Source: Linderina pennispora | Lineage: Eukaryota; Kickxellomycota; Kickxellomycetes; Kickxellales; Kickxellaceae | Assembly: GCF_002104995.1 (NCBI RefSeq) | Contig: NW_024468249.1 | Location: 2,976,001 to 3,040,000, forward strand | DNA: 64,000 nucleotides | Direction of reading: 5' to 3' | In this document: positions 4,159 through 32,881 of the stretch, piece by piece | How the letters are laid out: every line of letters begins with the position of its first letter | How positions within the stretch are numbered: the first letter of the stretch is position 1 | Made by a program: the position numbers and the translations under genes | The notes under the pieces: generated by a model | Told to the model about the DNA's origin: nothing | The model's input: only the letters and a program-made list of their open reading frames with translations | Databases searched by the model: none

Positions 4159-5595
4159 ATGGTCCGTTACAACAGTCCGCTGGGGCAGGTGCTCATCATC
4201 AGCAGTGTGTGCTTTCTGTGTCCAGGCATGTTCAACGCGTTGAACGGGCTAGGCGGTGCTGGGCAACTCGACACAAGCACAAGCAACAACGCAAACACAG
4301 CGCTATACGCAACATTCTGCGTGTTTAGCATTCTGGGCGGCGGCATAGTCAATGTCTGCGGTGTTCGATATCCGACAGCAGCAGCCTGCCTCACATATGC
4401 ATTCTACACTGGTTCCTACGTGTTCTACAACCACACTGGCCACAGCTACTTAACCATTGTTGCGGGCTGCGTGCTGGGCATAGGTGCTGGCGTGCTGTGG
4501 GCTGCCCAGGGCGTGGTAATGGTAGCGTATCCTATGGAACACGAAAAGGGACGCTTCATTTCAATATTCTGGGTCATTTTCAATCTAGGCGGCCTGATCG
4601 GCGGCCTGCTCCCATTTGCATTAAACTTTTACCATTCGGGGTCGCTCACAGACGCAGTTTACCTTATGTTTGTCATGCTGGAGTGCTTTGGCGCGCTGAT
4701 GGCGCTGATGCTAGCCCCGTCGACCGAGATCATTCGCAATAATGGCACGCGTGCAAGTGTAGTCGATAGGCACAGCGTGCGACGCGAATCAGTAGAGATA
4801 ATACGTCTACTGGCCAACAAATGGATGCTGTTGCTGCTGCCCATGTCGTTCACCTCAAACTTCTTTTACGGGTACCAGTTCTCACAGTACAATGCTGCTA
4901 TTTTCACACTGCGCACGCGGTCTTTCAACAACTTGCTCTACTGGCTATCCCAGATCATTGGGTCTTTTGTCCTGTCGCTGCTGCTGGATGCCTCGCGGTG
5001 GCCGCGCCAGACACGGGGTCGCTACGCAGTCCTCATAACCTCACTGGCATTTAATGCAGTGTGGGCGGCAACCTTGGTTGTCCAGTTGCGGTACACTCGG
5101 GGAATGCCGGACACCGATTACACAGGCGGCCCAGTAGACTTTCTACAAGGTAGTCGGGCAGTGGGCCCGATCTTCTTGTACTTCTTCATGGGAATGGTTG
5201 ACGCATGGTACCAAAATGTAGCATACTGGGTAATCGGGACGCTTACCAATGACACCAAAATCACCGCGCGATATATTGGTTTTTACAAGGGCGTACAGTC
5301 GCTGGGCGCCGCGGTCTCTTGGCAGATCGGTGCTCGTAAGGTGCCCTTTCTCAACCAAGTAATCGGAAATTGGATACTGCTATTGGCTTCATTGCCCACC
5401 ATGTTTTACACTGTCGCGCAAATCGAGGACAAGCCGATGGAGAGCCAGCTGGCATTTGCCCTGATGGACGATGACAACTCCATCATTGCCAGCACCTTTG
5501 AGAGCGACTTAATTTCTCGCTCACTGGAACGACCGTGCTCAGCCCCTGTCAGCTCACATCGTCACACGCAGCATTTTTACCATGGTAAAACGTAG
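4159..5595 (+). CDS. UNC93-like major-facilitator membrane protein
   Basis: I chose the Met at 4159, giving 478 aa starting MVRYNSPLGQ, because the family begins with a short tail immediately before TM1. The frame extends upstream to 3937 without support. About eleven to twelve hydrophobic segments are visible. TM1 ends in FLCPGMFNALNGLGGAG, a hallmark of fungal UNC93/DUF895 proteins. TM3-TM5 are glycine-rich (GIGAGVLWAAQG). The middle loop is basic and phosphorylatable (about 205-230). The second half starts with the aromatic-rich segment FFYGYQFSQYNAA. UNC93 proteins belong to the MFS superfamily, and most fungal members have no proven substrate. The cytosolic C-tail after about residue 425 is Ser-rich. 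The product is likely in the plasma or an endomembrane. Confidence 0.85.
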   Translation: MVRYNSPLGQVLIISSVCFLCPGMFNALNGLGGAGQLDTSTSNNANTALYATFCVFSILGGGIVNVCGVRYPTAAACLTYAFYTGSYVFYNHTGHSYLTIVAGCVLGIGAGVLWAAQGVVMVAYPMEHEKGRFISIFWVIFNLGGLIGGLLPFALNFYHSGSLTDAVYLMFVMLECFGALMALMLAPSTEIIRNNGTRASVVDRHSVRRESVEIIRLLANKWMLLLLPMSFTSNFFYGYQFSQYNAAIFTLRTRSFNNLLYWLSQIIGSFVLSLLLDASRWPRQTRGRYAVLITSLAFNAVWAATLVVQLRYTRGMPDTDYTGGPVDFLQGSRAVGPIFLYFFMGMVDAWYQNVAYWVIGTLTNDTKITARYIGFYKGVQSLGAAVSWQIGARKVPFLNQVIGNWILLLASLPTMFYTVAQIEDKPMESQLAFALMDDDNSIIASTFESDLISRSLERPCSAPVSSHRHTQHFYHGKT

Positions 5596-16774: not shown

Positions 16775-16864
16775 CTGTGAACACTAGGTGGCATAATTGA
16801 GTAATAATAGATTTTTTATTTATTTATTTAAACTTTTGATATCTTGATCATCTCATATGATATA
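16775..16864. other. left edge of AT-rich transposon island
   Basis: From here composition drops sharply to AT-rich DNA that continues to about 32.9 kb. A degenerate Tc1-like tip (CACTAGGTGGCATAATTGAG) starts near 16783, just outside the better conserved tip at 16865. Confidence 0.5.
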
Positions 16865-17461
16865 CACTGAGTGGCAAAATTGAGTCACAAAATTTTTTTT
16901 TCAACTTTTACTTTCTTTATCTCATTCATCAGATAACGTAGATACTTCTATTCATTATATGTTCAATGGGGCTTAGCATAGTATAACTATATGCAGTCAA
17001 AAGTTCGCTAAGCATTGTACTTTGTATGATATCGAAGTAATAGTAAAAAAGTAGAAAAATTTAAGTGGCAAAAATTTGACTTACTTTGACTTCATAGTGC
17101 TATTTCTATACCTTATCATTGTTTGAATAGTGTGAAATCTCTGCCCATAACTCTGCTGCACTCCCTCTTCTATATTAATATCTCATTCACAATGTTACTC
17201 AACAATGCATGGTACTATCATATATTCAATATGAGATGAAATAATATGAAGGAAATGATCAATGCTTCAGTGCTGTCCCTATATGTATAGATGATGAATA
17301 TATAGCTGATACTTATGTGACTAGTATTCAACACTGAAGAGAAATGAGATTGATAGCTAGTTCATAAAAGGGATAATCAACTATAAATATTGAGCAACTA
17401 TGCTTATGCTCTCCTTTAAAGCAATATAATTCTATGATATGATTTTTTATAGTATCAGTAT
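16865..17461 (+). repeat. left long inverted arm of the island (first part)
   Basis: It begins with a Tc1-like tip, CACTGAGTGGCAAAATTGA, preceded by TA. It runs about 600 bp and continues after element A at 21606-21722. The reverse complement, roughly 90 percent identical by eye, is at 31801-32881. The arm is non-coding. Confidence 0.8.
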
Positions 17462-17923
17462 GGAGGTCATTCAGAGTTTGTTATCTGCACAACAATTATT
17501 TATACATGTTTAAACTATTGGCAATTTCAGTGAAATAAAAATTTCACCCAAACCGCCATTGGCATCTTGGAAAAGTTTCAGTGAACATAATTTCAACCAG
17601 AAAGAAAAACCTTTGCATATTTGGGGTTAATTATCATTGGGCAACAAAAGTCAATATCTCAATAGATGTGGCTAAGCAACCACAAGGAAATTATGTTCAC
17701 TGAAACTTTTCCAAGATGCCGATGGCGGTTTGGGTGAAATGGCAAAAAAAATATTTGTATTTTTAAAATCAATTATACACACAAAAACATTCTGGACACA
17801 ACAATTATAAATATCTGTTACAAAAATATCTAGTAGCAAAAAATAGTTCTGAAAACGATTATTCAAATAACTATCTAACAAAATTGTAATTTACTAAAAT
17901 TTACAAGTCCAGGAATGACCCCC
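17462..17923 (+). repeat. terminal repeat A-left, with 54-bp-arm hairpin
   Basis: The 462-bp repeat contains inverted arms at 17541-17594 and 17687-17740 with at most one mismatch. They enclose a 92-nt loop at 17595-17686. The inner end, GAATGACCCCC, contains the start codon of ORF1, so the repeat probably supplies the promoter, as an LTR would. Apart from the loop, by eye it differs from A-right at about one base. Confidence 0.9.
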
Positions 17924-19549
17924 TTCCAAAGTGAACTAAGAGCATTACTAACAAGAGTGTTGTCAGAAAGAAGAAATATGCCTGATGTTGCTGATGCTAG
18001 GTATACTGCTAGAGGTGTAGAGCAACTTGGATTTAAGCACTCTTCTGAAATATTTGTTGACTCATTCATTGTTGAGGTTGTTGTTGAGAAATGCATTGAA
18101 TCAGATATAAAGGTAAAGCAGAAGTCAGCTAGTGTTAGATTGCATAAAGTATTTGGAGAAGGTTTTGGTTATAAGTATGTTAGAAGCAAGATTAGTGAGC
18201 AATATGGACCAGTTGCTATTTACAAAGTATCTACCCCAAACATTGCAATAACTAGTTCTTTGTTAACAGTGAAGTTTGCTACTATGGCTGATCACAAAAT
18301 ATTTCTACAGAATTATGACATCACAATGGATTGTATGAATATCTCATCTAGAAATATTATCTATAAATACCTTTTAGAAAGAGGAGTTGAAAAGAAAGAT
18401 GTTGTAGATGATTTACGCAAGTCTGGCTCTAACTGTATTAGCTGGTATACAAAGAAAGGAGATGTTAAAGTTAAGAACAAAATTTACAACAAGTTTATTC
18501 AGCTTCTTGAGAGTGGTGAAGTTCGTAATCCTCTTAGTTCCAAACTTTCTGAATTTGTAATGCCAACTTTGCACAACTTTGGAGAAACATTGTATGCTTG
18601 CAGAAACTCTGGTTTGACTAGGATAGAACTAACTGTACATTCTTCTCAGATGCAAACAGTTGAATGGAATAGTAACTTGCTTCTTAACACAGTTCAGTTC
18701 ATGAATGAATGCAGAACATTTGCAACTTCTTATGAAAAGCAGTGGATAGCACTTGTTGATAAAGTTAGTAGTTGTTATACAGTTTGCATTTATGTGAGAC
18801 AACAGCATACTCTAGCATATTGTCATTGGTTTAACTCTATCACATCAAAGAAGCAAGGAATTATTAAGAAACTAAACAAGAATGATGATCCAATGGTAGT
18901 TGTTGCTAATCTCTCATTCAACAACAGACCTACACTTTATCAAATATATGATTCACTTGAGAGTGGTCTTGAAACAGAAAAAGTTCTTAGAAGAGTTGAT
19001 GAGAATATAACTATTGTTCCAAGTCAGAGAAACTCCTTCTGGTCAACTTATCCTACAACTAAGCAGTATCACACTTTTGAAGAGATGGGATTAGTTAACT
19101 ATAAAGGAATGCATATTGGTTGGATAGATAGTAAGCAAGCAAAGAGTAAGATATGTCTATCAAAAATGTCAGAGGATAAATATTCTGCAAAAGAGGAAAA
19201 CATCAATGCATTAACAACAGCAATAGACAATATCACACTTGATGAAACTAGCCATATATTTATCAAAGAGAATACAGATCTGAAACCTTCATTGTATAGA
19301 GTTGCTTACAATGTTCTTCAGTTAGGTGATGAATTTACAGCTACACATTATGCACTCCATACTTTTAGAGGACATTCATACTTCTATGTTGATATTCTTA
19401 TTAAAGGGAGAGATAAACAGCCAACTCTTATTAGGACACCAGTTGACAGTTCTATTGGAAAAGCAATTTCTCAACAGTTAGGAGAAAGAAAGCAACAAAT
19501 ATATCTAAGAGTTATAAGTGTGGGATATAGAACAATCACAGTTGAATAG
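17915..19549 (+). CDS. element A ORF1, 544-aa protein of unknown function
   Basis: An intact 544-aa frame whose ATG lies in the last nine bases of the left terminal repeat. It is clearly related to ORF1 of element B; about half the residues match by eye. The most conserved blocks are MPDxxDARYT (near 23-32), NYDITMDCxNISSR, NCISWxT, KxYNKFxQLLESGEVRN, RxELTVHS, FATSYEKQW, TIVPSQRNSFW and GLVNYxGMHI. The spacing of a D-x-T-x-D strand, a K-x-YNK motif and an R-x-E strand recalls rolling-circle Rep and relaxase folds (Rep_trans / phage CRI type). I see no classical HUH triad, so this is only a hypothesis. It is the largest gene of the element. It ends 8 bp before the tail of antisense ORF2. Confidence 0.8.
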   Translation: MTPFQSELRALLTRVLSERRNMPDVADARYTARGVEQLGFKHSSEIFVDSFIVEVVVEKCIESDIKVKQKSASVRLHKVFGEGFGYKYVRSKISEQYGPVAIYKVSTPNIAITSSLLTVKFATMADHKIFLQNYDITMDCMNISSRNIIYKYLLERGVEKKDVVDDLRKSGSNCISWYTKKGDVKVKNKIYNKFIQLLESGEVRNPLSSKLSEFVMPTLHNFGETLYACRNSGLTRIELTVHSSQMQTVEWNSNLLLNTVQFMNECRTFATSYEKQWIALVDKVSSCYTVCIYVRQQHTLAYCHWFNSITSKKQGIIKKLNKNDDPMVVVANLSFNNRPTLYQIYDSLESGLETEKVLRRVDENITIVPSQRNSFWSTYPTTKQYHTFEEMGLVNYKGMHIGWIDSKQAKSKICLSKMSEDKYSAKEENINALTTAIDNITLDETSHIFIKENTDLKPSLYRVAYNVLQLGDEFTATHYALHTFRGHSYFYVDILIKGRDKQPTLIRTPVDSSIGKAISQQLGERKQQIYLRVISVGYRTITVE

Positions 19550-19557
19550 CAGCCATT

Positions 19558-19797
19558 TTAAAACATAGTATAAGCAACCATTCTCTCCATATCTCTATGG
19601 AAAGTATGACAAACATCATACACATGTTCAACCCTTACCTCACAATCAGTAGCAATATGTTGGATCCAATTACGCACTTGTATTGCTAAGTCATCACTCA
19701 TATCAAAGTCATGAATAAGTAGCAGAGTAAGCATATCTCTTTCTTCCTCACACATCTCAGCTAAATGTTGCTTGAAGAAGTTCTGGAATGATCCCAT
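19558..19797 (-). CDS. element A ORF2, conserved 79-aa antisense protein
   Basis: This 79-aa frame lies between ORF1 and ORF3 on the opposite strand. Its partner in element B has exactly the same length and place, with conserved positions MGxFxxFF, ExER, LL, MSxxL, RxWI, HVxDVC and MExMVA. That conservation at the same site on the opposite strand shows it is a real gene, not a shadow. The sequence is acidic and helical, without Cys/His metal motifs or membrane segments. It could be a small regulator or partner of ORF1 or ORF3; no family is recognised. Its start lies 51 bp from that of ORF3, so the two must share a divergent promoter. Confidence 0.75.
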   Translation of the reverse strand: MGSFQNFFKQHLAEMCEEERDMLTLLLIHDFDMSDDLAIQVRNWIQHIATDCEVRVEHVYDVCHTFHRDMERMVAYTMF

Positions 19798-19848
19798 TTT
19801 CTAAAATTGATAAAAGTTGAAATTTTTATTTATGACTACCTCACACAG

Positions 19849-20916
19849 ATGGACAATCAATTACAAGAATTAAGAGAGAAGGAGTGGAATGTGCTCTACA
19901 CAACAAAGTGGAGATTTCTTGATGAAGACTGGTTAGTACATAAACAACAGAAGTACTATAGGAGTGAAGCTCATGAAGTGAAAGAAATAAAGCTCATCAA
20001 AGATACACTTGTAAAGCAACTTGGAATGATCCCTGTGTTCTTCTTCTTAAATGTTCTATTTGGTGGAAAGCAGTATCCATGTCCTTACAGAAATGTTGAG
20101 AAAGGACTCTTGATTTTGTACCAGTTAGTTGCTGGGCTATCAATCAATGAGATGGAGAGGTTTATTCCTAAGAGCAGCTACCAAGTAATTCATAATATGT
20201 TCTATATCTCAGAGTTAAGTGAGTTGAACAAGAAGCTTTCACACTACTTGCACACAATGTTCTCCACTCCAGAACTAAGAGTGATCTCAGCAAAGATTCA
20301 GAATCCAACAAACTTTAAGCATATAACTCTTATGTTAGATGGACATGACTCACGAGCTCTACATAATGGTGCATACAAACCAAATCTTTATTCCTTCAAG
20401 TTGAAGAAGTCAGGATATAGAACACAAGTTTGCATTGATTTGAATGGAATGGTTGTCCTTGTTTCACCAACTGAGGAATGTAAAGACCACCCAGACTCTA
20501 AGATGATTAAGAATATGTCACTATTGAAATACATCTCTCCAGTAGATTGTGTTGTTTTAGATGGTGGTTATCCTCAAAGTATTCTGGAAGAGTTAACAGA
20601 AGCAGAAGAGAATGAGAATTTTGGAATGCATAACTTTTGCTTACCAGTTAGAAAGCCAAGAGGAACCAACTTAAGTGAAGCAGAGTTAGAATATAATAGC
20701 AAACTTGGGTCATTTAGATCAATGGTTGAGAGCACATTTGGAGAACTAGGTAACACATTTAAGAGACTATCAAATAGAGAAGTTGTGAGAATTAGAAACA
20801 CAACTGTATACAATGTGCAGTTTAAACTCTGTTGCTTACTCTACAATATGAAGAAGATCCTAGCAGCTAGTAAAGTTCCTGTTGAACATCACCACACACT
20901 TTGGGTTCTGATCTAA
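19849..20916 (+). CDS. element A ORF3, Harbinger-like DDE nuclease, C-terminus lost by frameshift
   Basis: I start at the ATG at 19849 (MDNQLQELREKEW), which aligns with the start of the element B homologue. The 355-aa product keeps all three DDE_Tnp_4-like blocks: MLDGHDSRA, VVLDGGYP and FRSMVESTFGELGNTFKRL. These supply the acidic triad of PIF/Harbinger-type transposases. After HHHTLWVL the frame ends prematurely. The partial copy at 26.2 kb reads GGTTCTATCTAAC where this has GGTTCTGATCTAAC. The single additional G at about 20911 removes about 53 C-terminal residues, whose frame would end at 21079. The B homologue has 409 aa. Catalytic residues remain, so activity cannot be excluded. Confidence 0.8.
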   Translation: MDNQLQELREKEWNVLYTTKWRFLDEDWLVHKQQKYYRSEAHEVKEIKLIKDTLVKQLGMIPVFFFLNVLFGGKQYPCPYRNVEKGLLILYQLVAGLSINEMERFIPKSSYQVIHNMFYISELSELNKKLSHYLHTMFSTPELRVISAKIQNPTNFKHITLMLDGHDSRALHNGAYKPNLYSFKLKKSGYRTQVCIDLNGMVVLVSPTEECKDHPDSKMIKNMSLLKYISPVDCVVLDGGYPQSILEELTEAEENENFGMHNFCLPVRKPRGTNLSEAELEYNSKLGSFRSMVESTFGELGNTFKRLSNREVVRIRNTTVYNVQFKLCCLLYNMKKILAASKVPVEHHHTLWVLI

Positions 20917-21140
20917 CTTTGACTACCCAAGCAACAACCAGGAGAGATCAACACATGCTGAAGTTGGAAGTACTTTACCACAAAAAGTAGAGTTAGAAGC
21001 TTCAATGAGAGAACTACAAGATAGACTGATTCAAGCTAAAATTGATGAGTCAATGAACTTCTATGTAGACATGTCATAAGTAACTTTTAAAATAGGAATT
21101 CTCAGTAAGAAATTTGCATTGATAGAAAATGCTTCAATAA

Positions 21141-21602
21141 GGAGGTCATTCAGAGTTTGTTATCTGCACAACAATTATTTATACATGTTTAAACTATTGG
21201 CAATTTCAGTGAAATAAAAATTTCACCCAAACCGCCATCGGCATCTTGGAAAAGTTTCAGTGAACATAATTTCCTTGTGGTTGCTTAGCCACATCTATTG
21301 AGATATTGACTTTTGTTGCCCAATGATAATTAACCCCAAATATGCAAAGGTTTTTCTTTCTGGTTGAAATTATGTTCACTGAAACTTTTCCAAGATGCCG
21401 ATGGCGGTTTGGGTGAAATGGCAAAAAAAATATTTGTATTTTTAAAATCAATTATACACACAAAAACATTCTGGACACAACAATTATAAATATCTGTTAC
21501 AAAAATATCTAGTAGCAAAAAATAGTTCTGAAAACGATTATTCAAATAACTATCTAACAAAATTGTAATTTACTAAAATTTACAAGTCCAGGAATGACCC
21601 CC
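21141..21602 (+). repeat. terminal repeat A-right, loop inverted
   Basis: Direct 462-bp repeat of 17462-17923. The hairpin arms are at 21220-21273 and 21366-21419. The 92-nt loop at 21274-21365 is the exact reverse complement of the loop in the left repeat, while everything outside the arms stays in direct orientation. Confidence 0.9.
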
Positions 21603-21605
21603 TAT

Positions 21606-21722
21606 ATAGATAGGTAGAGAGGTTACTACTGTGGCTATCCACTCTATATTGTGAGATATCTATATGTAACCTTTGTGCCAAATAATAAGCTATTTAATCT
21701 GAATCACAAATTTTGCAACTTT
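21606..21722 (+). repeat. left long inverted arm, second part
   Basis: Continuation of the arm that starts at 16865, displaced by insertion of element A. It matches the reverse complement of about 31801-31920. Confidence 0.75.
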
Positions 21723-22117
21723 GGAGATCAGCCAGAGTTTGGTAGCTATTTAATAATTATTAATATTTCTATTATTTTCTTATTCAGATGCCAAATATGG
21801 TGCTTCTCCAAAACCCCCTTCGGCATCCTGAAAAATATCAGTTGATACATAATTAATATGCTTCTACAGAGATAGAGGCTGGGTCACAAGAAATCAACTG
21901 AAATTTTTCAGGATGCTAAAGGGGGTTTCATAGAAGCACCATATTTGGTATCTTTGTTTATTTGTTAATCTAATTGCTAGAATCTTTTTAGCTAGTACTA
22001 GATATTCTAATTTTTAATACTTTTTGGCTAGCAGTAATTAATTTATTAATTATTAATTAGTTATTCAGATAATAGATAATTAGTTTCTTTAAACTTTTTT
22101 GCTTTAGAATGGCCTCC
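21723..22117 (-). mobile_element. solo B-type hairpin repeat
   Basis: A full-length copy (395 bp) of the element B terminal repeat, in reverse orientation. It has both ends (GGAGATCAGCC and GAATGGCCTCC), diverged arms and the loop. It sits alone, without element genes, like a MITE or solo LTR. Flanking triplets are TTT and TAT, close to the TAT duplication of element A. Confidence 0.8.
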
Positions 22118-22457
22118 TATATTCTTATATAATTGTAGTTTTTTTTAAGCATAGCTTAAAAGGGGATGAGATATGGATATTGAAGAGAACACTGTTGTAT
22201 TGATGGCTAAATTTTTGAATTTTTCTGTTGATTATTTGGGCATAAAACTAGTTATCAAAAGTAGGAAAGGTCAAAAATGAGCACAATTAAAAATTACTGC
22301 TTTTCAAAAGATAGTAATTTCTAGAGAGTGCAATATTCATCATTATAAGCAAGTGATATGCATACCCCACTCTCAAGGGTATCATATTACTGCTTTTTTG
22401 AAATCAACTATTTTCTGAAGTACAATTTTCTGTTGCTCAATTTTGGCACTCAGTATA
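22118..22457. repeat. degraded right end of a Tc1-like element
   Basis: The sequence parallels 24880-25251, the terminal part of the better preserved Tc1-like element. Shared patches include GGAAAGGTCAAAAATGA and GTGATATGCATACCCCACT. It ends in a decayed tip, CTCAATTTTGGCACTCAGT. Confidence 0.65.
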
Positions 22458-23551
22458 TATTACATTTGTATTTCAATTTCAAATTACTATGCTTTTTTAT
22501 TGATGCATATTCAATATTAGTTATATATTTTAATATATGAATATACTGCTATTCACTGAAAATTCTGTTATAATTATATCACATATTTGTATAAAGCACT
22601 TTCTACGAACTGCATATATAAATGTCTCTTACTCTAGGAAACAAACAATATTATATTATTAAATTTTTATTATGAAATGAATATATTACTTTTTACTCTA
22701 TATTTCTTATATGCTATATCTCTATGTAGGTCACTAGGCCTAACTGCCATAGTAGGTAATGGTAGTAATAAGGATAGCCAGAGATATTTCCTACCATTTA
22801 TTAAATTCCCATTTTCCTTAGAGATCCCCTTCTGGAAACAAATACCACATTCTAATGTAGTAATGCTTTCTACATTTTCCAAGACATTGACACACTTAGG
22901 GATATGTGATACAAGTGATGATGAATTTTTCCCATCAAATTGCACACCAACACCTATTGGAGAAACACTAACAACATATCCTGGGCCAGATATACTAGCA
23001 AAAGAATCATCAGAAATAGTACTGGTATCATCTACAGTACCTTTGAATCATGATGTACAAGCACTACCAATGCCATACCCTAAAACTACTAGAGGACTAT
23101 ATAAAAGGCGTAGTGTTGAAGTGACAATTGATATAGTTACTCCCTTTCGAAAGGCTCCTTCTCCAAATACCATTCATAGCACTTAATATCATTCGTAATA
23201 GTGTGCTGCTTGCATTTGAGGCACCATTGCTATTGCTAGGACTAGTATAAATGACCACTTATGATTTACAGTAGTACCATTACCATTGGGGTAGATAGAA
23301 CATGATATTTTCGTGTTTTATAGTATGGATTTTATGGTGAAGGAGCATTAATAAACTATGATCTGTAACAAAGTGATGTAGTTAATTACTTCAAAAATCA
23401 TTTCAAATAGAGGCAGTAAGTGTGATATACCTAGATATCTACTACTCAATGTGTAATATCAGAAGGAGTAGTAATGCTATACCCTTAAGGATGGAGCATT
23501 ATAGATAGCAGTTAAAAATATACTGAATAGAAAAATCGAGTCAGAGAAATA
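22458..23551. other. AT-rich stretch with one orphan open frame
   Basis: The only notable content is a 169-codon plus-strand frame at 22677-23186. It starts with a hydrophobic leader-like stretch and continues with a Pro/Ser/Thr-rich part. It matches nothing I recognise and could be a transposon remnant. The rest shows no repeats tied to the other elements. Confidence 0.35.
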
Positions 23552-23669
23552 CACTGAGCGGCAAAATTGAGTCACAAAATTTTTTTTCAACTATTTGATG
23601 CAATATCTTCATCATCAGATAACGTAGATACTTCCATTCGACATATGTTTGATGGGGCTTGATATAGTA
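23552..23669 (+). repeat. fragment of the long inverted arm tip
   Basis: A Tc1-like tip followed by about 100 bp that matches the start of the arm at 16865 (shared AGATAACGTAGATACTTC). It is cut by the Tc1 element that starts at 23670. Confidence 0.65.
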
Positions 23670-25251
23670 CACTGAGTGGCAAAATTGAGTCACAAAAATG
23701 GAATTCATCGAAAATCTTCAATAGCTTCTCAGATTATTGTGCAGTCCACATGAGAAATTTATTTTATAATCTATGCAATGCCCAACCATAGCATACAAAG
23801 TTATAAGCACGTCGCTCAAGAAATCACTGAGAAACTGATTTTTAAAAATTGTATTTTTTGACTCAATTTTGCTCACAAAAATTCGACGATTTATCGCTCA
23901 ATATCTGGTATGGCCACCATGGGCTTTTTTGACAGCTGCGATACGCGAAGGCATCGAGTTCACCAGCTGTGAGCAAATGGTTTCATTTACTTGCTCACAC
24001 CAGATGTCCTGGACCTGCTCCCAGAGGGTGTTGAGATCTTCGATTTCAGGCCCATTACGGATCTCATGCTTAATGAAGTCCCACAAATGCTCAATGGGGT
24101 TGAGATCAGGGGACTGCGCTGGCCATGGTAGCACTGAAATGGAGTTCTCAGCAAACCACCTCCTTGTCCTAGAAGCCATATGGCATGAAGCATTGTCCTG
24201 TTGGAAGATGATGTCACCCTTGTCCAGCCCATATATCTCAATTGTTTGCAGTAGTTCCTCCTGCAGGACACCCACATAGACCGCTGTGTCAATTCCCCCC
24301 TCAAGCCAGCAGAGTTGGCCAGGGCCACATGAAGTTATGCATCCCCAAACCATGATCCCACCTCCACCATATTTTTGGGTTGGGGTAATGTGGTGATCCT
24401 GGAGGACTCCGCCTGGTTTACGTAAGCATCTTTCACATCCATCTGCTCCATTGAGGTGTATTCTTGTCTCATCTGACCAAATTACCTGACTCCAATCGGT
24501 GTCTGTCTAGCTCCCAAAGGCCATAGCGAATTGGCGTCGATCCTTACGATGGCGATCTTTCAGTTGAGGGACTTTTATTCTGCGCATAGATCGAATCCCT
24601 TGGCGACGTAGTGCGCGTCTGATAGTGTACACTGAGATGTGTATACCAGAGTATTGTGCCAGCTGTTGTCGGATCTGCGTTGCTGTGGAACATGCACCAG
24701 TAGTAGCAAGTCGACAAATATATGTCTCATCATGTGGTGATAGCAGCCGACTACGACCAGCATGGAAGTTCCTCTTTACGCTATGTTGTGCTCAGGCAAT
24801 GCGTGATACTGTGGATTGGGAGACTCCTGTGTCCAATGCAATTTGCCGGGTTGAGAGAGGATTTGATAGAAGAAATTTGATGTGATTTTTATGTGATGAT
24901 TGTAACTTTATAGGCATAGCTAGAATAGAAATGAGATGTGGATGTGGATGAGAGAATGCTGTTGTCCTGTTGGCTAAAATTTGGAATTTGTCCACTGCTG
25001 TTTTGGGTATAAAACTAAACATCGAAAGTAGGAAAGGTCAAAAATGACCACTACCAAAAATTACTACTTTTTCAAAAGACAGTAATATCAAGGGAGTGCG
25101 ACATTCTAGGAACATTAGTCTTACACAATTCTCATCATCGCATGCAAGTGATATGCATACCCCACTATCAAGGGTATTGCATCACTGCTTTATCAGATAT
25201 CAAACATTTTCAGAAGAAAAAATTTTTGTGACTCAATTTTGCCGCTCAGTG
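23670..25251 (-). mobile_element. Tc1/mariner-type element, decayed
   Basis: A 1582-bp element with inverted tips CACTGAGTGGCAAAATTGA and its complement at 25233-25251, flanked by TA on both sides as expected for Tc1/mariner. It carries a broken transposase gene on the minus strand. Its coding part is more GC-rich than the surrounding island. Confidence 0.85.
23898..24917 (-). pseudogene. Tc1-type transposase, broken
   Basis: The Met at 24917 opens a helix-turn-helix segment (STRQIALDTGVSQSTVSR), as in Tc1 transposases, and the total length of about 340 codons is normal. A frameshift follows near 24790 and an in-frame stop near 24510. The last 151 codons are open and hold the catalytic blocks FQQDNASCH and SPDLNPIEHLW, ending in GGHTRY. 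This is a dead gene that keeps recognisable DDE motifs. Confidence 0.85.
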
Positions 25252-25253
25252 TA

Positions 25254-25533
25254 TTAGCAGAATAACCAATTAACAAATAAGAAATCAATTACTAGCAGTA
25301 GATAAATATTTTAATATACAGAATGTTTAGCAGTGGCCAAAAAGATTCTAGCAACTAGATTAACAAATAAACAAAGATGACAAATATGGTGCTTCTCCGA
25401 AACCCCCTTCAGTATCCTGAAAAATTTCAGTTGATACACAATTAATATGCTTCTACTGAGATAGAGGCTGGGTCACAAGAAATCAACTGAAATTTTTCTG
25501 GATGCCAATAGGGGTTTCATAGAAGTGCCCTTT
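25254..25533 (+). repeat. partial B-type hairpin repeat
   Basis: Both ends are missing, but the internal part of the B terminal repeat, including diverged hairpin arms and loop, is present. The loop orientation equals that of B-right. The left end was removed where the Tc1-like element inserted. Confidence 0.75.
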
Positions 25534-25988
25534 GGAGGTCATTCTTGGAGTTGTAAATTTTAGTATATTACAATTTTGGTAGTTAAATATTAGAATATTC
25601 GTTTTCAGTACTGTTTTTGCTACCAATTATTTTTCAAAGCTATGATATATTATTGTGTCCAGAATGTTTTTGAGTGTATAATTGATTTTAAAAATACAAA
25701 TATTTTTCAATTTCACCTAAACTGCCATCGGCAACTTGGAAAAGTTTCAGTGAACATAATTTCAACCAGAAAGAAAAACCTTTGCATATTTGGGGTTAAT
25801 TATCATTGGGCAACAAAAGTCAATATCTCAATAGATGTGGCTAAGCAACCACAAGGAAATTATGTTCGCTGAAACTTTTCCAAGATGCCGATGGCAGTTT
25901 GAGGGAAATTTTTATTTCACTGAAATTGCCAATTGTTTCAACATGTGTATATAATTGTTGTGCAATTAATTAACTCAGAATGGCTTCC
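25534..25988 (-). repeat. A-type terminal repeat, reverse copy
   Basis: A diverged full-length copy (455 bp) of the A terminal repeat in reverse orientation, ending in GAATGGCTTCC. It is the terminal repeat of the truncated A-like element whose ORF3 end lies just to the right. Confidence 0.8.
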
Positions 25989-26498
25989 ATATTGAAGCAT
26001 TTTCTATCAATGCAAATTTCTTACTGAAAATTCCTATTTTAAAAGTTGCTTATGACATGTCTACATAGAAGTTCATTGACTCATCAATTTTAGCTTGAAT
26101 AAGTTTATCTTGTAGTTCTCTCATTGAAGCCTCTAGTTCTACTTTTTGTGGTAAACTACTTCCAACTTCAGCATGTGTTGATCTCTCCTGGTTGTTGCTT
26201 GGGTAGTCAAAGTTAGATAGAACCCAAAGTGTGTGGTGATGCTCAACAGGAACTTTACTAGCTGCTAGGATCTTCTTCATATTGTAGAGGAAGCAACAGA
26301 GTTTAAACTGCACATTGTACACAGTTGTGTTTCTAATTCTCACAACTTCTCTATTTGATAGTCTCTTAAAGGTGATACCTAGTTCTCAAAATGTGCTCTC
26401 AACCATTGATCTAAATGTCCCAAGTTTGCTATTATATTCTAACTCTGCTTCACTTAAGTTGGTTCCTCTTGGCTTTCTAACTGGTAAGCAAAAGTTAT
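25989..26498 (-). pseudogene. 3' half of an A-like element: ORF3 C-terminal fragment
   Basis: The last part of ORF3 is readable on the minus strand. The open part, 26343-26050, ends in the frame lost from element A (SNFDYPSNNQERSTHAE ... FYVDMS). Upstream codons are partly out of frame. The fragment stops abruptly at 26498, where another A-type repeat begins after TAT. Confidence 0.75.
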
Positions 26499-26838
26499 GG
26501 AGGTCATTCAGAGTTTGTTATCTGCACAACAATTATTTATATATGTTTAAACTATTGGCAATTTCAGTGAAATAAAAATTTCACCCAAACCGCCATCGGC
26601 ATCTTGGAAAAGTTTCAGTGAACATAATTTCCTTGTGGTTGCTTAGCCACATCTATTGAGATATTGACTTTTGTTGCCCAATGATAATTAACCCCAAATA
26701 TGCAAAGGTTTTTCTTTCTGGTTGAAATTATGTTCACTGAAACTTTTCCAAGATGCCGATGGCGGTTTGGGTGAAATGGCAAAAAAAATATTTGTATTTT
26801 TAAAATCAATTATACACACAAAAACATTCTGGACACAA
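26499..26838 (+). repeat. A-type terminal repeat, 3'-truncated
   Basis: The first 340 bp of the A repeat, with complete hairpin (loop orientation as A-right), joined to unrelated AT-rich DNA shortly before element B. Confidence 0.8.
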
Positions 26839-26853
26839 TAACAAATAATAACT

Positions 26854-27250
26854 GGAGGCCATTCACAAATATAAATAGTTAAAGAAACTAAATAACTATT
26901 ATCAGAATAACCAATTAACAAATAAGAAATCAATTACTAGCAGTAGATAAATATTTTAAAATACAGAATGTTTAGTAGTGGCCAAAAAGATTCTAGCAAC
27001 TAGATTAACAAATAAACAAAGATGCCAAATATGGTGCTTCTACGAAACCCCCTTCGGCATCCTGAAAAATTTCAGTTGATTTCTTGGGACACAGCCTCTA
27101 TCTCAGTAGAAGCATATTAATTGTGTATCAACTGAAATTTTTCAGGATGCCGAAGGGGGTTTCGTAGAAGCACCATATTTGGCATCAGAACAAGAAAACA
27201 ATAAAAATATTAATAATTATGAAATAGCTAACCAATTCTGACTGATCTCC
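26854..27250 (+). repeat. terminal repeat B-left, with 60-bp-arm hairpin
   Basis: The ends are GGAGGCCATTC and GACTGATCTCC. Hairpin arms at 27021-27080 and 27127-27186 enclose a 46-nt loop at 27081-27126. The arms look perfectly complementary over 60 bp. Confidence 0.9.
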
Positions 27251-27278
27251 TTATAGAACTAGACTTAATCAAAAGGTT

Positions 27279-27605
27279 CCATTTTAAAACATCATGTTCA
27301 AGTCATCAAGTCATTATCATCCTATTTATAACTATTTTTCTAATACCAAGTAATCATATATATTATCAATTTTAAAAAGAATCAAACTATGCCATTTTAA
27401 AAAATCGTAATAAATTCATCAAGTTGTTAGAACCCCATCTGTAATAAGTAGATATGCACCAAGCAATCATATATACAATCATTTTTAGAAAGATTCAAAC
27501 TGTGCCATTTTAAAACATCATATTCAAGTCATCAAGTCATTAGTACTCCATCTGTAATTAATCAATATGCACCAAGCAATCATATGTATCATCAATTTTA
27601 GATTG
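27279..27605. repeat. three imperfect tandem repeats at the 3' end of element B
   Basis: Units of about 113 bp start near 27279, 27391 and 27504, each with CCATTTTAAAA followed by a CATCAAG-containing part and an AATCATAT-containing part. The last unit contains the final codons and stop of ORF3, so the two outer units are duplicated gene ends. Confidence 0.7.
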
Positions 27606-28787
27606 AAGGAATCGATTTTGAATTTCAACAATAGATGCTTCTAACTCTGCTTTTTGGGGCAAAGTATGTATTGGTTCCACTTGTGTTGACTTATCATGTG
27701 TATCAGGGTAATCAAAGTTACTCATAACCCAGAGTGAGTGATGATGATCAATATGTACATCACTGTTTGCTAGTAACTTCTTCATATTATAGAGTAAGCA
27801 GCATAACTTCATTTGCACATTGTAAACATTCCTATTCTTTACTCTAACAATCTCCCTGTTTGACAGCCTTTTGAATGTATTGCCTAGTTCTCCAAATGTA
27901 TTTTCTACCATTGAACGGAATGATCCAAGATGGGAATTATATTCAGCTTCTGTTTCTGATAAACTTGTTCCTCTCTGCTTTCTTACTGGTAAACAAAAGT
28001 TGTGCAGTCCAAAAGTATCCTGCTCTTCTTCCTCAGTCATCTCTTCCAAAATACTTTGTGGATAGCCACCATCAAGCACAATGCAATCAATAGGTGATAT
28101 GTTCTTCAGTAGCCCCATGTTCTTAATCATTCTTGAGTCTGGGTGATCTCTACAGTCTTCAGTTGGTGAAACAAGTAGAACCATTCCATTCACATCAATG
28201 CATACTTGTGTGCGATATCCTGATTTTTTCAATTTGAATGAATAGAGATCTGGTTTGTATGCTCCATTGTGTAGTGCTCTTGAGTCATGGCCATCTAACA
28301 TTAGTGTTACATGTTTAAACCCTTGTGGATTCTGTATCTTTGCTGCAAAGACTCGTAGTTCTGGAGTTGAAAACATTGTTTGTAGATAGTATGTTAGCTT
28401 CTTGTTCAAATCTTTCATTTCAGAAATATAGAACATATTGTGAATAGCTTGATAGCTGCTTCTTGGAATGAATCTTTCCATTTCATTGATTGACAATCCT
28501 TCAACAAGTTGGTACAAGATGAGCAATCCTTTCTCTACACTTCTGTAAGGACATGGATAATGAGTGCAACCAAACAAAACATTCAGAAAGAAGAAAACAG
28601 GAATCATCCCTAGATGTTTAAGAAGTGTATCTTTTATATGCTTAATTTCTCTTACTTCATGAACTTCACTTCTGTGATATTTTGTGGGCTTTAAAATTAC
28701 CCAGTCATCATTCAGAAACTTCCATTTGTTTGTGTACAGCTTATGAAACTCCCTTTCTCTGAGTTCTTGTAATTGATGATTCATCAT
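27558..28787 (-). CDS. element B ORF3, intact Harbinger-like DDE nuclease
   Basis: A complete 409-aa protein starting MMNHQLQELRERE. The DDE blocks are MLDGHDSRA (Asp165), IVLDGGYP (Asp239) and FRSMVENTFGELGNTFKRL (Glu295), matching the DDE_Tnp_4 / PIF-Harbinger superfamily of transposases. A hydrophobic block at 61-73 (MIPVFFFLNVLFG) and an HTH-like block at about 96-120 precede the catalytic domain. The C-terminal 55 residues are charged and helical (ELEASIVEIQ) and are missing in element A. It probably cuts and joins the element ends. Its start lies 40 bp from that of ORF2, leaving a very small shared promoter. Confidence 0.85.
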   Translation of the reverse strand: MMNHQLQELREREFHKLYTNKWKFLNDDWVILKPTKYHRSEVHEVREIKHIKDTLLKHLGMIPVFFFLNVLFGCTHYPCPYRSVEKGLLILYQLVEGLSINEMERFIPRSSYQAIHNMFYISEMKDLNKKLTYYLQTMFSTPELRVFAAKIQNPQGFKHVTLMLDGHDSRALHNGAYKPDLYSFKLKKSGYRTQVCIDVNGMVLLVSPTEDCRDHPDSRMIKNMGLLKNISPIDCIVLDGGYPQSILEEMTEEEEQDTFGLHNFCLPVRKQRGTSLSETEAEYNSHLGSFRSMVENTFGELGNTFKRLSNREIVRVKNRNVYNVQMKLCCLLYNMKKLLANSDVHIDHHHSLWVMSNFDYPDTHDKSTQVEPIHTLPQKAELEASIVEIQNRFLQSKIDDTYDCLVHID

Positions 28788-28827
28788 TGTGAGGCACTCA
28801 TAAATTTAAAAGTTGTCATTTATTACA

Positions 28828-29067
28828 ATGGGCCCATTCTACACTTTCTTCACTACAAAACTTGCTGACCTTGATGAGCAAGAGAGAGAAAAGCTTGCAC
28901 AACTACTAACTAAGAATTTCAGTATGAGCAGGAAATTGTCAGTATATATCAGAGCATGGATTGAGAGTGTTTCAGAAGATAAGGGTGTTACTATTAAGCA
29001 TGTGTTTGATGTATGCAACTACAGTTGTGCAGATATGGAAGTAATGGTTGCTAACTGCCCATTTTAA
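28828..29067 (+). CDS. element B ORF2, conserved 79-aa antisense protein
   Basis: The ATG at 28828 gives 79 aa, the same length as ORF2 of element A. Shared features are MGxFxxFF at the start, an ExER motif, MSxxL, an RxWI block, HVxDVC, MExMVA and a final Phe. It ends 2 bp before the tail of ORF1 on the other strand. The shared tail-to-tail junction reads CCATTTTAAAAC in both elements. Function unknown; a helical acidic partner or regulator is a guess. Confidence 0.75.
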   Translation: MGPFYTFFTTKLADLDEQEREKLAQLLTKNFSMSRKLSVYIRAWIESVSEDKGVTIKHVFDVCNYSCADMEVMVANCPF

Positions 29068-29069
29068 AA

Positions 29070-30713
29070 CTAGATCCTCGCAATATGGATAATACGATTA
29101 TGAATTCTAGCTACTTTAAGTACTACTTCTTGATTTGGTTCACCAATAATAGAAGCAATATATTCACCAAATGGACTACTTGCTTGTATTTTGATATGAG
29201 TGTGAGTACTGCTAACTACTTCATTGTGAATCATATAGATATCTAGATAGTAGAATGGCAACCCTCTAAAAGTATATAAGAAATAATGACTAACTAGGAA
29301 CTCATCTCCAGCATGAAGTATGTTATAAGCAACTTTGTATCTAGCTGGCCTAAGATCAGTATTTTCTCTTATGTATATGGGTTCTAGATCATCAAGTTCA
29401 ATGTTGCTGATATCAGCAATAAGATCATCTATTCCTAGGTCATCAGCATCCTCACTAATACTTGAGAGAGTTGAGAGACAAACTTTCTCTCTTGCTTGTT
29501 GAGCAGTTAGCCAATCAATATGCATCCCACGATAGTTTACAAGTCCCATTTCAGCAAATGTGTGTTGTTGTCTTTCTCTTGAAGCAACAGGCCAGAAAGA
29601 ATTCCTCTGACTTGGAACAATGGTGATGTTTGTGTTATCTCTTCTTAGAACAACTTCTGATTCAACAGGACCACTGCTGGTAGCATATGTTAGAAGAACA
29701 GTTGGGTGCCCATTAAATGTAAGATTGGAAACAACAGTCATCACATCCTCATTCTCTTTCAACTTTTTAGCTATTCCTTGTTTCTTCATAGTTGTCCTAT
29801 TGAACCAATGGCAGTAACCAAGAGCATGTTCTTTATGGAAGTAAATGCATAACATATTTTTGTTATAAATCTGATCAACTAGTGCCATCCATTGCTTTTC
29901 ATAAGATGTTGCAAATGTCCTACAATCACTAAGAAACTCCAGTGTACTAGCAATTAAGTTTATGTTCCATTCTACTTCTTTCAACTCAGGAGAGTGAACA
30001 GTAAGCTCAAGTCTCATTAATCCTTCATTCCTGCAAGCAACAAGTGTTTCACCAAATTGCTGAGAAGTTGGCATCACTAGCTCTGATAGCTTAGAAGTAA
30101 GTTGATTACGAACCTCACCACTTTCTAGAAGTTGAACAAATTTATTATACAACTTGTTCCTAATTTTTATTTCATCTTCATCAGTAAACCAGCTAATACA
30201 GTTTGCTCCAACTTTATCTTCATCATCAAGAATATCATTGCTACTGATTTCATTATCAAGAAGAAATTCCTTAATCACAGCCCTAGAAGATATGTTTAAA
30301 CAATCCATTGTAATATCATAGTTCAGAAGAAATACATGTTCCTGATGCATCCTAAGAAAGATATCAGTTAGTGCAGGATCAGCTATTGCAACATTTGGAG
30401 CAGATACTTTGTAAACAGAGACTTTACCATTTCTTGCACTTGTCATGCACTTCATATACTTAAATCTGTATCCATCACCAAAAACTCTATGCAATCTAAC
30501 AAATGGAGTAATATTGTTAATCTGATCTATAAGAGCATATGATTCAGGTATCTCAACAACACATGAATCCATAAAGATATCAGATTGCTGAACAAATCCT
30601 TGTTGTTCAATGCCATTACTAGTATATCTTGCATCAGATATATCAGGCATATTATCTCTATTCTTCAACTGAAGTCCCAAAAGGGAGTTAAGATGTACTC
30701 CCAAGGAGGCCAT
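29070..30713 (-). CDS. element B ORF1, 547-aa protein of unknown function
   Basis: An intact 547-aa frame. Its ATG is the complement of CAT in the repeat end GGAGGCCATTC, so it starts within the right terminal repeat, exactly as in element A. Conserved points are MPDISDARYT at 22-31, YDITMD at 132-137, NCISW at 171-175, KLYNK at 187-191, LLESGEVRN at 195-203, RLELTVHS at 234-241, and SQRNSFW further on. The D-x-T-x-D, K-x-YNK and R-x-E order is suggestive of Rep/relaxase folds, but HUH and catalytic Tyr positions cannot be fixed by eye. No membrane segment is seen. It shows no sign of decay. Confidence 0.8.
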   Translation of the reverse strand: MASLGVHLNSLLGLQLKNRDNMPDISDARYTSNGIEQQGFVQQSDIFMDSCVVEIPESYALIDQINNITPFVRLHRVFGDGYRFKYMKCMTSARNGKVSVYKVSAPNVAIADPALTDIFLRMHQEHVFLLNYDITMDCLNISSRAVIKEFLLDNEISSNDILDDEDKVGANCISWFTDEDEIKIRNKLYNKFVQLLESGEVRNQLTSKLSELVMPTSQQFGETLVACRNEGLMRLELTVHSPELKEVEWNINLIASTLEFLSDCRTFATSYEKQWMALVDQIYNKNMLCIYFHKEHALGYCHWFNRTTMKKQGIAKKLKENEDVMTVVSNLTFNGHPTVLLTYATSSGPVESEVVLRRDNTNITIVPSQRNSFWPVASRERQQHTFAEMGLVNYRGMHIDWLTAQQAREKVCLSTLSSISEDADDLGIDDLIADISNIELDDLEPIYIRENTDLRPARYKVAYNILHAGDEFLVSHYFLYTFRGLPFYYLDIYMIHNEVVSSTHTHIKIQASSPFGEYIASIIGEPNQEVVLKVARIHNRIIHIARI

Positions 30714-31101
30714 TCACAAATATAAATAGTTAAAGAAACTAAATAACTATTATCAGAATAACCAATTAACAAATAAGAAATCAATTACTAGCAGTAGATA
30801 AATATTTTAAAATACAGAATGTTTAGTAGTGGCCAAAAAGATTCTAGCAACTAGATTAACAAATAAACAAAGATGCCAAATATGGTGCTTCTACGAAACC
30901 CCCTTCGGCATCCTGAAAAATTTCAGTTGATACACAATTAATATGCTTCTACTGAGATAGAGGCTGTGTCCCAAGAAATCAACTGAAATTTTTCAGGATG
31001 CCGAAGGGGGTTTCGTAGAAGCACCATATTTGGCATCAGAACAAGAAAACAATAAAAATATTAATAATTATGAAATAGCTAACCAATTCTGACTGATCTC
31101 C
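30705..31101 (+). repeat. terminal repeat B-right, loop inverted
   Basis: Direct 397-bp repeat of 26854-27250. Hairpin arms are at 30872-30931 and 30978-31037. The 46-nt loop at 30932-30977 is the exact reverse complement of the B-left loop. Being upstream of ORF1, this copy probably acts as its promoter. Confidence 0.9.
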
Positions 31102-31800: not shown

Positions 31801-32881
31801 TAAGAAAGTTGCAAAATTTGTGATTCAGATTAAATGGCTTATCATTAGGCACAGAGGATACATATAGATATCTCACAGTATAGAGTGGATAGCCACAGTA
31901 GTAACCTCTCTACCTATCTATATACTGATACTATAAAAAATCATGTCATAGAAATACATTGCTTCAAAGGAGAGCATAAGTGTAGTTGCACATTATTTAT
32001 AGTTGATTACTCCTTCAGTGAACTAGCTATCAATCTCATTTCTCTTCAGCGTTGAATACTAGTCATGTGAATATCAATCATGCAATCTACATCTATAAGA
32101 GTGAAGGCAGCACTGAAGCATTGATCATTTCCTTCATATTTTTCATCTCATGTTGAATACATGATAGTACCATGCGTAGTTGAGCAACATTGTGAATGAG
32201 ATATTTATATAGAAGAGGGAGTGCAGCAGAGTTATGGGTAGAGATTTCACATCATTCAAAAAATGATAAGGTATAGAAATAGCACTATGAAGCCAAAGTT
32301 GGTAAAAATTTTGCCTCTCAAATTTTTCTAGTTTTTTACTCTTGTATCGATATCATACGAAGTATGATGTTTAATGAACATCTGTCATGCTGCTAGGGTG
32401 GTTCCGACTCACCCAAGGCGGATTACTCACTGAGAGTGGCGCAGCTTTATCCAGGGCCGTACGCGGCTTAGATGAGGGCTCAGTATGCGCACTCGGCCCT
32501 TGCTTAAATACCCCTTGCTGGCTCCTAGCAGCAGGGATTCCTTCTGGTTTTTCCAATATATCTTGGTGAACGCCTACTTTTGGTTTTATCAGCACATTTA
32601 TAATCATCATTAGGAGAACACGCTACCTAGTTTCCTCTTCCCTGACATTTGACCTAGGTCGTTTTAGGCGCGTACTGTATTATTTAAGTGTATTTTGTGG
32701 GCTATGATGAGTGCTGACAGAAGAAAGGCACCCGGCACCACACATCTAACTTCATACGTTTATACTATGTCAAGCCCCATCAAACATATGTCGAATGGAA
32801 GTATCTACGTTATCTGATGATGAAGATATAGCATCAAAATGTTGAAAAAAATTTTTTGTGACTCAATTTTGCCGCCCAGTG
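31801..32881 (-). repeat. right long inverted arm of the island
   Basis: Reverse complement of 16865-17461 joined to 21606-21722, ending in the tip CCCAGTG followed by TA. It keeps the site into which element A inserted on the other arm. It is interrupted by the insert at 32384-32741. A second, more decayed tip follows at about 32925. Confidence 0.8.
32384..32741. mobile_element. candidate solo LTR or small insertion with ACATCT duplication
   Basis: This GC-richer block of about 358 bp is absent from the matching left arm and is flanked on both sides by ACATCT. On the minus strand it contains a TATTTAAG box. These features fit a solo LTR or other small insertion with a 5-6-bp target duplication. 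Ends are not clear TG..CA, so the class remains open. Confidence 0.55.

Follow-up and report, generated by a model that had tools for sequence, protein, structure and literature searches.

The window analysed here, a stretch of 64,000 nucleotides of the genome of the fungus Linderina pennispora (contig NW_024468249.1, positions 2,976,001–3,040,000), contains two related mobile elements, element A at 17462–21602 on the plus strand and element B at 26854–31101 on the minus strand (window coordinates). In coding order, both elements follow the same plan: a long terminal direct repeat (LTDR), an open reading frame termed ORF1, an antisense ORF2, a DDE transposase gene and a second LTDR, with repeats of 462/462 bp in element A and 397/397 bp in element B. 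A preliminary description of the window, made from its letters alone, had given these coordinates and repeat lengths exactly, and the hairpin arms of 54 and 60 bp that it placed in the LTDRs, as well as the trio of ORF1, antisense ORF2 and transposase, were recovered in both elements. Absent from that description were the inversion of the hairpin loop between the repeats, the inverted ends of each LTDR, the 3-bp target duplications, the position of the ORF1 start, the minus-strand orientation of element B and its lack of a target duplication, and the shortened transposase frame of element A.

Element A begins with its 5′ LTDR (17462–17923, +), which runs from GGAGGTCATTC to GAATGACCCCC and carries a hairpin (17541–17740) with arms at 17541–17594 and 17687–17740 around a loop at 17595–17686. 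The ATG of ORF1 (17915–19549, +, 544 amino acids) lies within the final 9 bp of this LTDR. ORF2 (19558–19797, −, 79 amino acids) is antisense and is followed by the transposase gene (19849–20916, +; PF13359 match, 8.7e-14), which is shorter than that of many sibling copies, with an open frame of 374 compared with 428 amino acids. In the 3′ LTDR (21141–21602, +), the hairpin (21220–21419; arms at 21220–21273 and 21366–21419) has a loop (21274–21365) that is inverted relative to that of the 5′ LTDR. The element is flanked by the 3-bp target duplication TAT at 17459–17461 and 21603–21605, as read by fitting the joined flanks to an empty site, an inverted related copy of these flanks without the insertion (31805–32384, −), for which 3 bp fits best among duplications of 0–8 bp.

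Element B starts on the minus strand with its 5′ (ORF1-end) LTDR (30705–31101, −), the hairpin of which (30872–31037; arms at 30872–30931 and 30978–31037) encloses a loop (30932–30977) inverted relative to that of the other B LTDR. It continues with ORF1 (29070–30713, −, 547 amino acids), ORF2 (28828–29067, +, 79 amino acids), which is antisense to the other genes, and the transposase gene (27558–28787, −, 409 amino acids; PF13359 match, 6.3e-14), and ends with the 3′ (transposase-end) LTDR (26854–27250, −), with a hairpin at 27021–27186 (arms at 27021–27080 and 27127–27186, loop at 27081–27126). A 113-bp unit is present three times in tandem between this LTDR and the end of the transposase gene (27260–27570). 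The start codon of ORF1 again lies inside the upstream LTDR, at the equivalent place to that in A, and the LTDR is therefore part of the gene.

Concerted repeats and turning loops

The genome searched comprises 26.17 Mb in 222 contigs, among them those labelled C24, C35, C133, C144, C178, C196 and C212. Six-frame searches gave at least 83 transposase matches and at least 79 ORF1 matches, 42 of these 79 being free of stops over at least 535 of 547 positions; the counts are lower bounds, as only the best candidates were scored. The genome search proposed in the preliminary description thus recovered many copies, and with 32 repeat pairs of the expected spacing and strand they bear out its view of a single mobile family with a repeat–hairpin–three-gene plan. 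Several A copies show no difference across the internal region of 3216 bp, from which it follows that the family moved very recently, as had been supposed when the elements were called young; the internal regions of different lineages diverge by about 4–5%.

Once all loops are set to the same orientation, 17 pairs show 0–2 substitutions between the LTDRs of an element, compared with as many as 34 in A and 19 in B between LTDRs from separate lineages. Separate descent of the two ends since the origin of the element would give differences within elements equal to those between elements; therefore, either one end repeatedly serves as the template for both or the ends are repeatedly homogenized, and the earlier remark that the repeats are kept alike was apt. 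Such concerted LTDR pairs are the signature of a long terminal repeat (LTR) retrotransposon without reverse transcriptase.

In window element A as in B, the two LTDR loops are reverse complements of each other. The plain identity of the pair is 87.5% in A and 91% in B, whereas one substitution remains in A and none in B after turning the loop, so that the repeats, previously called nearly identical, deserve the term only once the overlooked inversion is taken into account. Across the genome, both loop orientations are present at both element ends. The pairs were drawn from the best 40 LTDRs per search, and older pairs are missing; LTDRs were paired if they lay on one contig with matched strand and inner spacing, nested solo and full elements being permitted. 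The C133 dimer was entered once, and two pairs were dropped, C24:720707/725728, for which 724850 is the true partner, and C212:220680/224815, in which the strand of the transposase does not fit. Among the 16 A pairs, the loop states were same/same in four, flipped/flipped in eight and discordant in four, the corresponding numbers for the 16 B pairs being seven, three and six. Concordant loops were thus found in 22 of 32 pairs, compared with 16.5 expected when loop states are shuffled separately for A and for B (P 0.046), or in 23 of 34 when two looser pairs were added (P 0.043). This excess is modest, and the two discordant window elements are therefore not unusual; discordant nested pairs occur on C144 and C212. 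In a first sample of pairs, concordance within elements had seemed to be almost the rule (about 14 of 16), which did not hold once searches with the flipped repeats added discordant pairs.

Loop turning is fast, as is firmly seen from otherwise identical 4.1-kb copies in opposite states: elements that show 0 substitutions across the 3216-bp internal region and the LTDRs are opposite in loop state at each of their two ends (C178 and C35:14 compared with C35:16005 and C133, one LTDR of the latter aligning with two gap columns). The loop, the orientation of which is that read from the assembly, can turn during hairpin-based copying or through host recombination. It provides a built-in marker, quicker than substitution, of the history of each end since its last copying, and makes the regeneration of both ends in composite elements directly testable.

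The hairpin itself is well preserved. The left LTDRs of A and B, folded as single DNA strands, have z scores of −10.6 and −16.3, with none of 100 shuffles per LTDR folding equally well. The arms are free of mismatches in 21 of 31 A LTDRs and 18 of 24 B LTDRs compared; one B LTDR row has a 39-bp arm only, and the arms of the 5′ LTDR of window element A contain one mismatch. Mean pairwise divergence, computed with partial LTDRs and rows of less than 380 bp set aside, is 1.3–2.7% in the arms compared with 4.3–6.1% in the flanks, and amounts to 1.7% in the A loop and 3.8% in the B loop; as conservation of the A loop roughly equals that of the arms, the latter are perhaps not the sole constrained part. 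The arms of A and B have a 33-bp core in common (17550–17582 in the 5′ LTDR of A), which agrees at 28 of the 33 positions and runs the same way along both hairpins, a score reached by none of 2000 shuffles, and the best local alignment of the whole A LTDR with the whole B LTDR also falls within the hairpin. Judged from its conservation, this core would look like a putative protein-binding or processing site.

Genes and insertion sites

Between A and B, the identities are 50% for ORF1, 43% for ORF2 and 79% for the transposase, with ratios of nonsynonymous to synonymous substitution (dN/dS) of 0.29, 0.32 and 0.09, respectively, which are rough because a dS of about 1.5 is near saturation. Both transposases match DDE_Tnp_4 (PF13359) above the cut-off, and matches to DDE_Tnp_1 and, weakly, to Plant_tran were also seen; residues D165, D239 and E295 of the B enzyme are invariant across 16 aligned sequences, and its structure is predicted to be RNase H-like. 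In a gene model from Cunninghamella blakesleeana (P0042), a related DDE_Tnp_4 transposase is combined with a retroviral-type aspartyl protease and a chromodomain; a chromodomain is found in many relatives and in none of the Linderina copies scanned. ORF1 and transposase are the only open reading frames of at least 120 amino acids in the two elements, and neither matches a reverse transcriptase, in keeping with the absence of this enzyme reported previously.

No Pfam family above the cut-off was found for ORF1 or ORF2 of either element, and ORF1 had no significant match in Pfam, PHROG, NCBIfam or the PDB. Its relatives in a protein search were only three Linderina pennispora proteins (94, 88 and 51% identical); none was found in plasmids and phages or, using two peptide patterns, in viral contigs and GTDB contigs. 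An ORF1-like part nevertheless lies beside a related transposase in Rhizomucor pusillus (P0053), so that ORF1 is a partner protein in no fewer than two phyla of fungi; no described relative of it came to light. The P0053 gene model has the transposase ahead of the ORF1-like part, opposite to the order in Linderina, as expected if the model spans adjoining units of a tandem multimer; neither P0053 nor the transposase alignment matched any of the viral contigs. Prediction of the ORF1 structure, which the preliminary description had recommended, gave no usable fold (mean predicted local distance difference test score, pLDDT, 39.7).

A perfect 3-bp direct target duplication flanks 13 of the 17 spans checked, and the four spans lacking one (window element B, C35:13190–21508 and two C196 spans with a common right end) all sit within nested or rearranged stretches. 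On C35, C144, C178 and C196, A and B elements are nested in each other and in themselves. A 3-bp duplication also borders six of 13 putative solo LTDRs; among the seven without one, some are not clean solos. Most duplications are AT-rich, TWA (TAA/TTA) being present in one of the 19 read (13 spans and 6 solos). Each LTDR has short inverted ends of its own, GGAGGTCATTC versus GGGGGTCATTC in A and GGAGATCAGTC versus GGAGGCCATTC in B. C133 carries a tandem dimer, whose LTDRs are located at 5513, 9191 and, extending to the contig end, 12869.

Possible origin of the repeat pairs

The account that we favour, with restrained confidence, is that of a composite-like DNA transposon, the transposase of which inserts the whole unit while both LTDRs are regenerated from one template. 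The DDE transposase, with its RNase H-like fold, would recognize the short inverted ends (GGAG..), and either an LTDR–internal region–LTDR (LTDR–INT–LTDR) unit or a single LTDR would be inserted with a 3-bp target duplication, which is the anatomy seen in the genome. The LTDR supplies the first ORF1 codons and presumably the promoter region. Concerted evolution suggests that both LTDRs are made from one template in each round or soon after; the simplest route would be a circle with one LTDR, or a replicated form in tandem, from which a unit bounded by two LTDRs would be cut by the transposase, with solo LTDRs and dimers as probable by-products. The hairpin with its conserved core may be the site at which ORF1 and/or the transposase bind or process the DNA, and its opening and rejoining might turn the loop round.

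Several observations weigh against regeneration from one template. No circle or intermediate was observed. The LTDR pairs share ancestry and so are not fully independent, and gene conversion by the host, or unequal exchange, can likewise produce concerted evolution. Loop concordance is not significant in A (P 0.067) or B (P 0.34) alone, and 10 of the 32 pairs are discordant (four of 16 in A and six of 16 in B); some turning therefore occurs apart from the copying of pairs, and as evidence for a single template the loops are weak. The similar conservation of the A loop (1.7%) and the arms counts on the same side, as do the lack of a significant family match for ORF1 and its poor fold model.

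A quite conceivable, although not the probable, explanation is an ordinary cut-and-paste composite, in which the transposase moves the whole unit, and host recombination, in the form of gene conversion, unequal crossing-over and cruciform-driven inversion at the palindromes, homogenizes the repeats and turns the loops. This would account for the solo LTDRs, the dimers and the ten discordant pairs without any special intermediate, and unequal exchange is among the routes to multimers proposed for KolobokP transposons in PMC9587614. However, both LTDRs would have to be turned in elements with 0 substitutions in 4.1 kb, homogenization would have to be repeated in every lineage seen, and a loop concordance somewhat above expectation (P 0.046) also argues against it.

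It is rather unlikely that ORF1 is a tyrosine nickase of the Rep_trans/Phage_CRI type acting at the LTDR hairpin, with rolling-circle or rolling-hairpin replication of the element and a DDE transposase that only integrates the product. The two orientations of the loop resemble the flip-flop of hairpin replicons. Residues D133, Y189-x-K191 and [LM]-x-R234-x-E236 are invariant in five ORF1 sequences and occur also in the Rhizomucor relative, their spacing (56 and 45) is similar to that in IKe-type replication proteins (54 and 46), and shuffling ORF1 20000 times yields the combined pattern 10 times, although this pattern was designed after viewing the sequences. The Rep_trans motifs named in PMC5714925 are D, YxKxxE and W/LxRxE, and the E of motif III is replaced by Q in ORF1. 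Moreover, the alignment of ORF1 to the Rep_trans/Phage_CRI profile has an hhalign E of 0.15 and a probability of 0.4%, with motif IV in register, the segment alone gives an E of 0.087 out of register, PF02486 has no match anywhere in the genome and the fold model failed. The resemblance of ORF1 to Rep_trans proteins is confined to motifs, with no significant profile match. One may still speculate, at similarly long odds, about a transposon with two engines, in which an ORF1 nickase of this type copies the element from a single-LTDR cruciform through rolling-circle or hairpin replication, the loop being turned on rejoining, and the DDE transposase cuts the two-LTDR unit out of the tandem product and integrates it; if true, LTR-like ends in DNA transposons would be a signature of replication without reverse transcription.

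The possibility raised in the preliminary description that the repeats are independent hairpin-bearing miniature inverted-repeat transposable elements flanking unrelated genes by chance finds some echo in the solo LTDRs with target duplications (6/13), but it is exceedingly improbable and was ruled out by the same plan in 32 pairs, the duplications at the outer ends, the concerted pairs and the start of the ORF1 frame within the LTDR.

Known systems and surrounding sequence

The family resembles PIF/Harbinger elements in its DDE_Tnp_4 transposase, its 3-bp target duplication and the presence of a second protein, and the label Harbinger-like used previously holds at the level of this domain, which is common to other groups and is not sufficient for PIF/Harbinger. 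It differs in its long hairpin-bearing direct repeats, in its target, which is not TWA (1/19), and in that no Myb-like partner was found; the latter two differences are the reason not to class it with PIF/Harbinger. With LTR retrotransposons it shares long equal terminal direct repeats, concerted pairs and solo repeats, whereas the DDE transposase is of the DNA-transposon type and the LTDRs have short inverted ends; an LTR retroelement was ruled out by the absence of reverse transcriptase among the open reading frames of A and B. Rolling-hairpin and rolling-circle replicons have loops in two orientations, as do the Linderina hairpins. Unlike these replicons, the family has a DDE transposase; its ORF1, a candidate nickase, matches the Rep_trans motifs given in PMC5714925 partially.

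In literature searches judged by titles and the openings of abstracts, the sole close match was KolobokP (Kojima and Bao 2022, PMC9587614), a DNA-transposon lineage with the same LTDR–INT–LTDR plan, which the earlier statement that neither PIF/Harbinger nor LTR elements fit had overlooked. There, the long repeats are introduced with the words 'Unlike any other DNA transposons' and the molecular pathway is called unknown. The LTDRs of KolobokP measure about 450 (or 660) bp and bear inverted ends of 11–18 bp of their own, and RR..YY ends, solo LTDRs, multimers and short target duplications are also described; the Linderina family likewise has short inverted ends in each LTDR, solos (6/13 duplicated) and the C133 dimer. 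KolobokP is described there from animal phyla, with a Kolobok transposase and a His-Me finger nuclease, whereas the Linderina family belongs to a fungus and has a DDE_Tnp_4 transposase, with ORF1 and antisense ORF2 that lack known domains, unlike the KolobokP partner set. There was no Pfam match to a His-Me finger nuclease in ORF1 or ORF2; given this absence and the uncertain affinity of the transposase to Kolobok, the family should not be classed as KolobokP. In a term search, 'hairpin' and 'stem-loop' were absent from the main text of PMC9587614. No paper naming the Linderina family was found, although an uncited Repbase entry may exist, and none was found that combines Linderina with Harbinger (PMC12730594 does not contain Linderina in a term search).

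The LTDR–INT–LTDR plan is thus known already from KolobokP, while the loop-inverting hairpins, the concerted LTDR pairs, the ORF1 partner and a fungal host with another partner set are new. The family is apparently a second DDE transposon that bears direct repeats of the retroviral kind, this time from a different kingdom and with different partners, which would make the LTDR plan a recurrent solution rather than a Kolobok freak, and the hairpin with its turning loop hints at an unusual self-copying route.

The window is in part occupied by an AT-rich island (31–45% GC at 16–34 kb, in 2-kb steps), outside which the GC content is 52–67% except in one 2-kb step at 47%. A diverged solo B-type LTDR, for which no target duplication was read, lies at 21723–22117 (+), and rearranged A-type fragments at 25534–26854 comprise an LTDR (25534–25988, −), an internal piece (25990–26499) and an LTDR piece (26499–26854, +). 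The same island contains a separate DDE_3 transposase fragment (23898–24353), which we take to be of the Tc1/mariner type. Related repeat pieces occur at 16863, 23550, 23668, 23836 and 31104, and the right flank of element B resembles part of this sequence.

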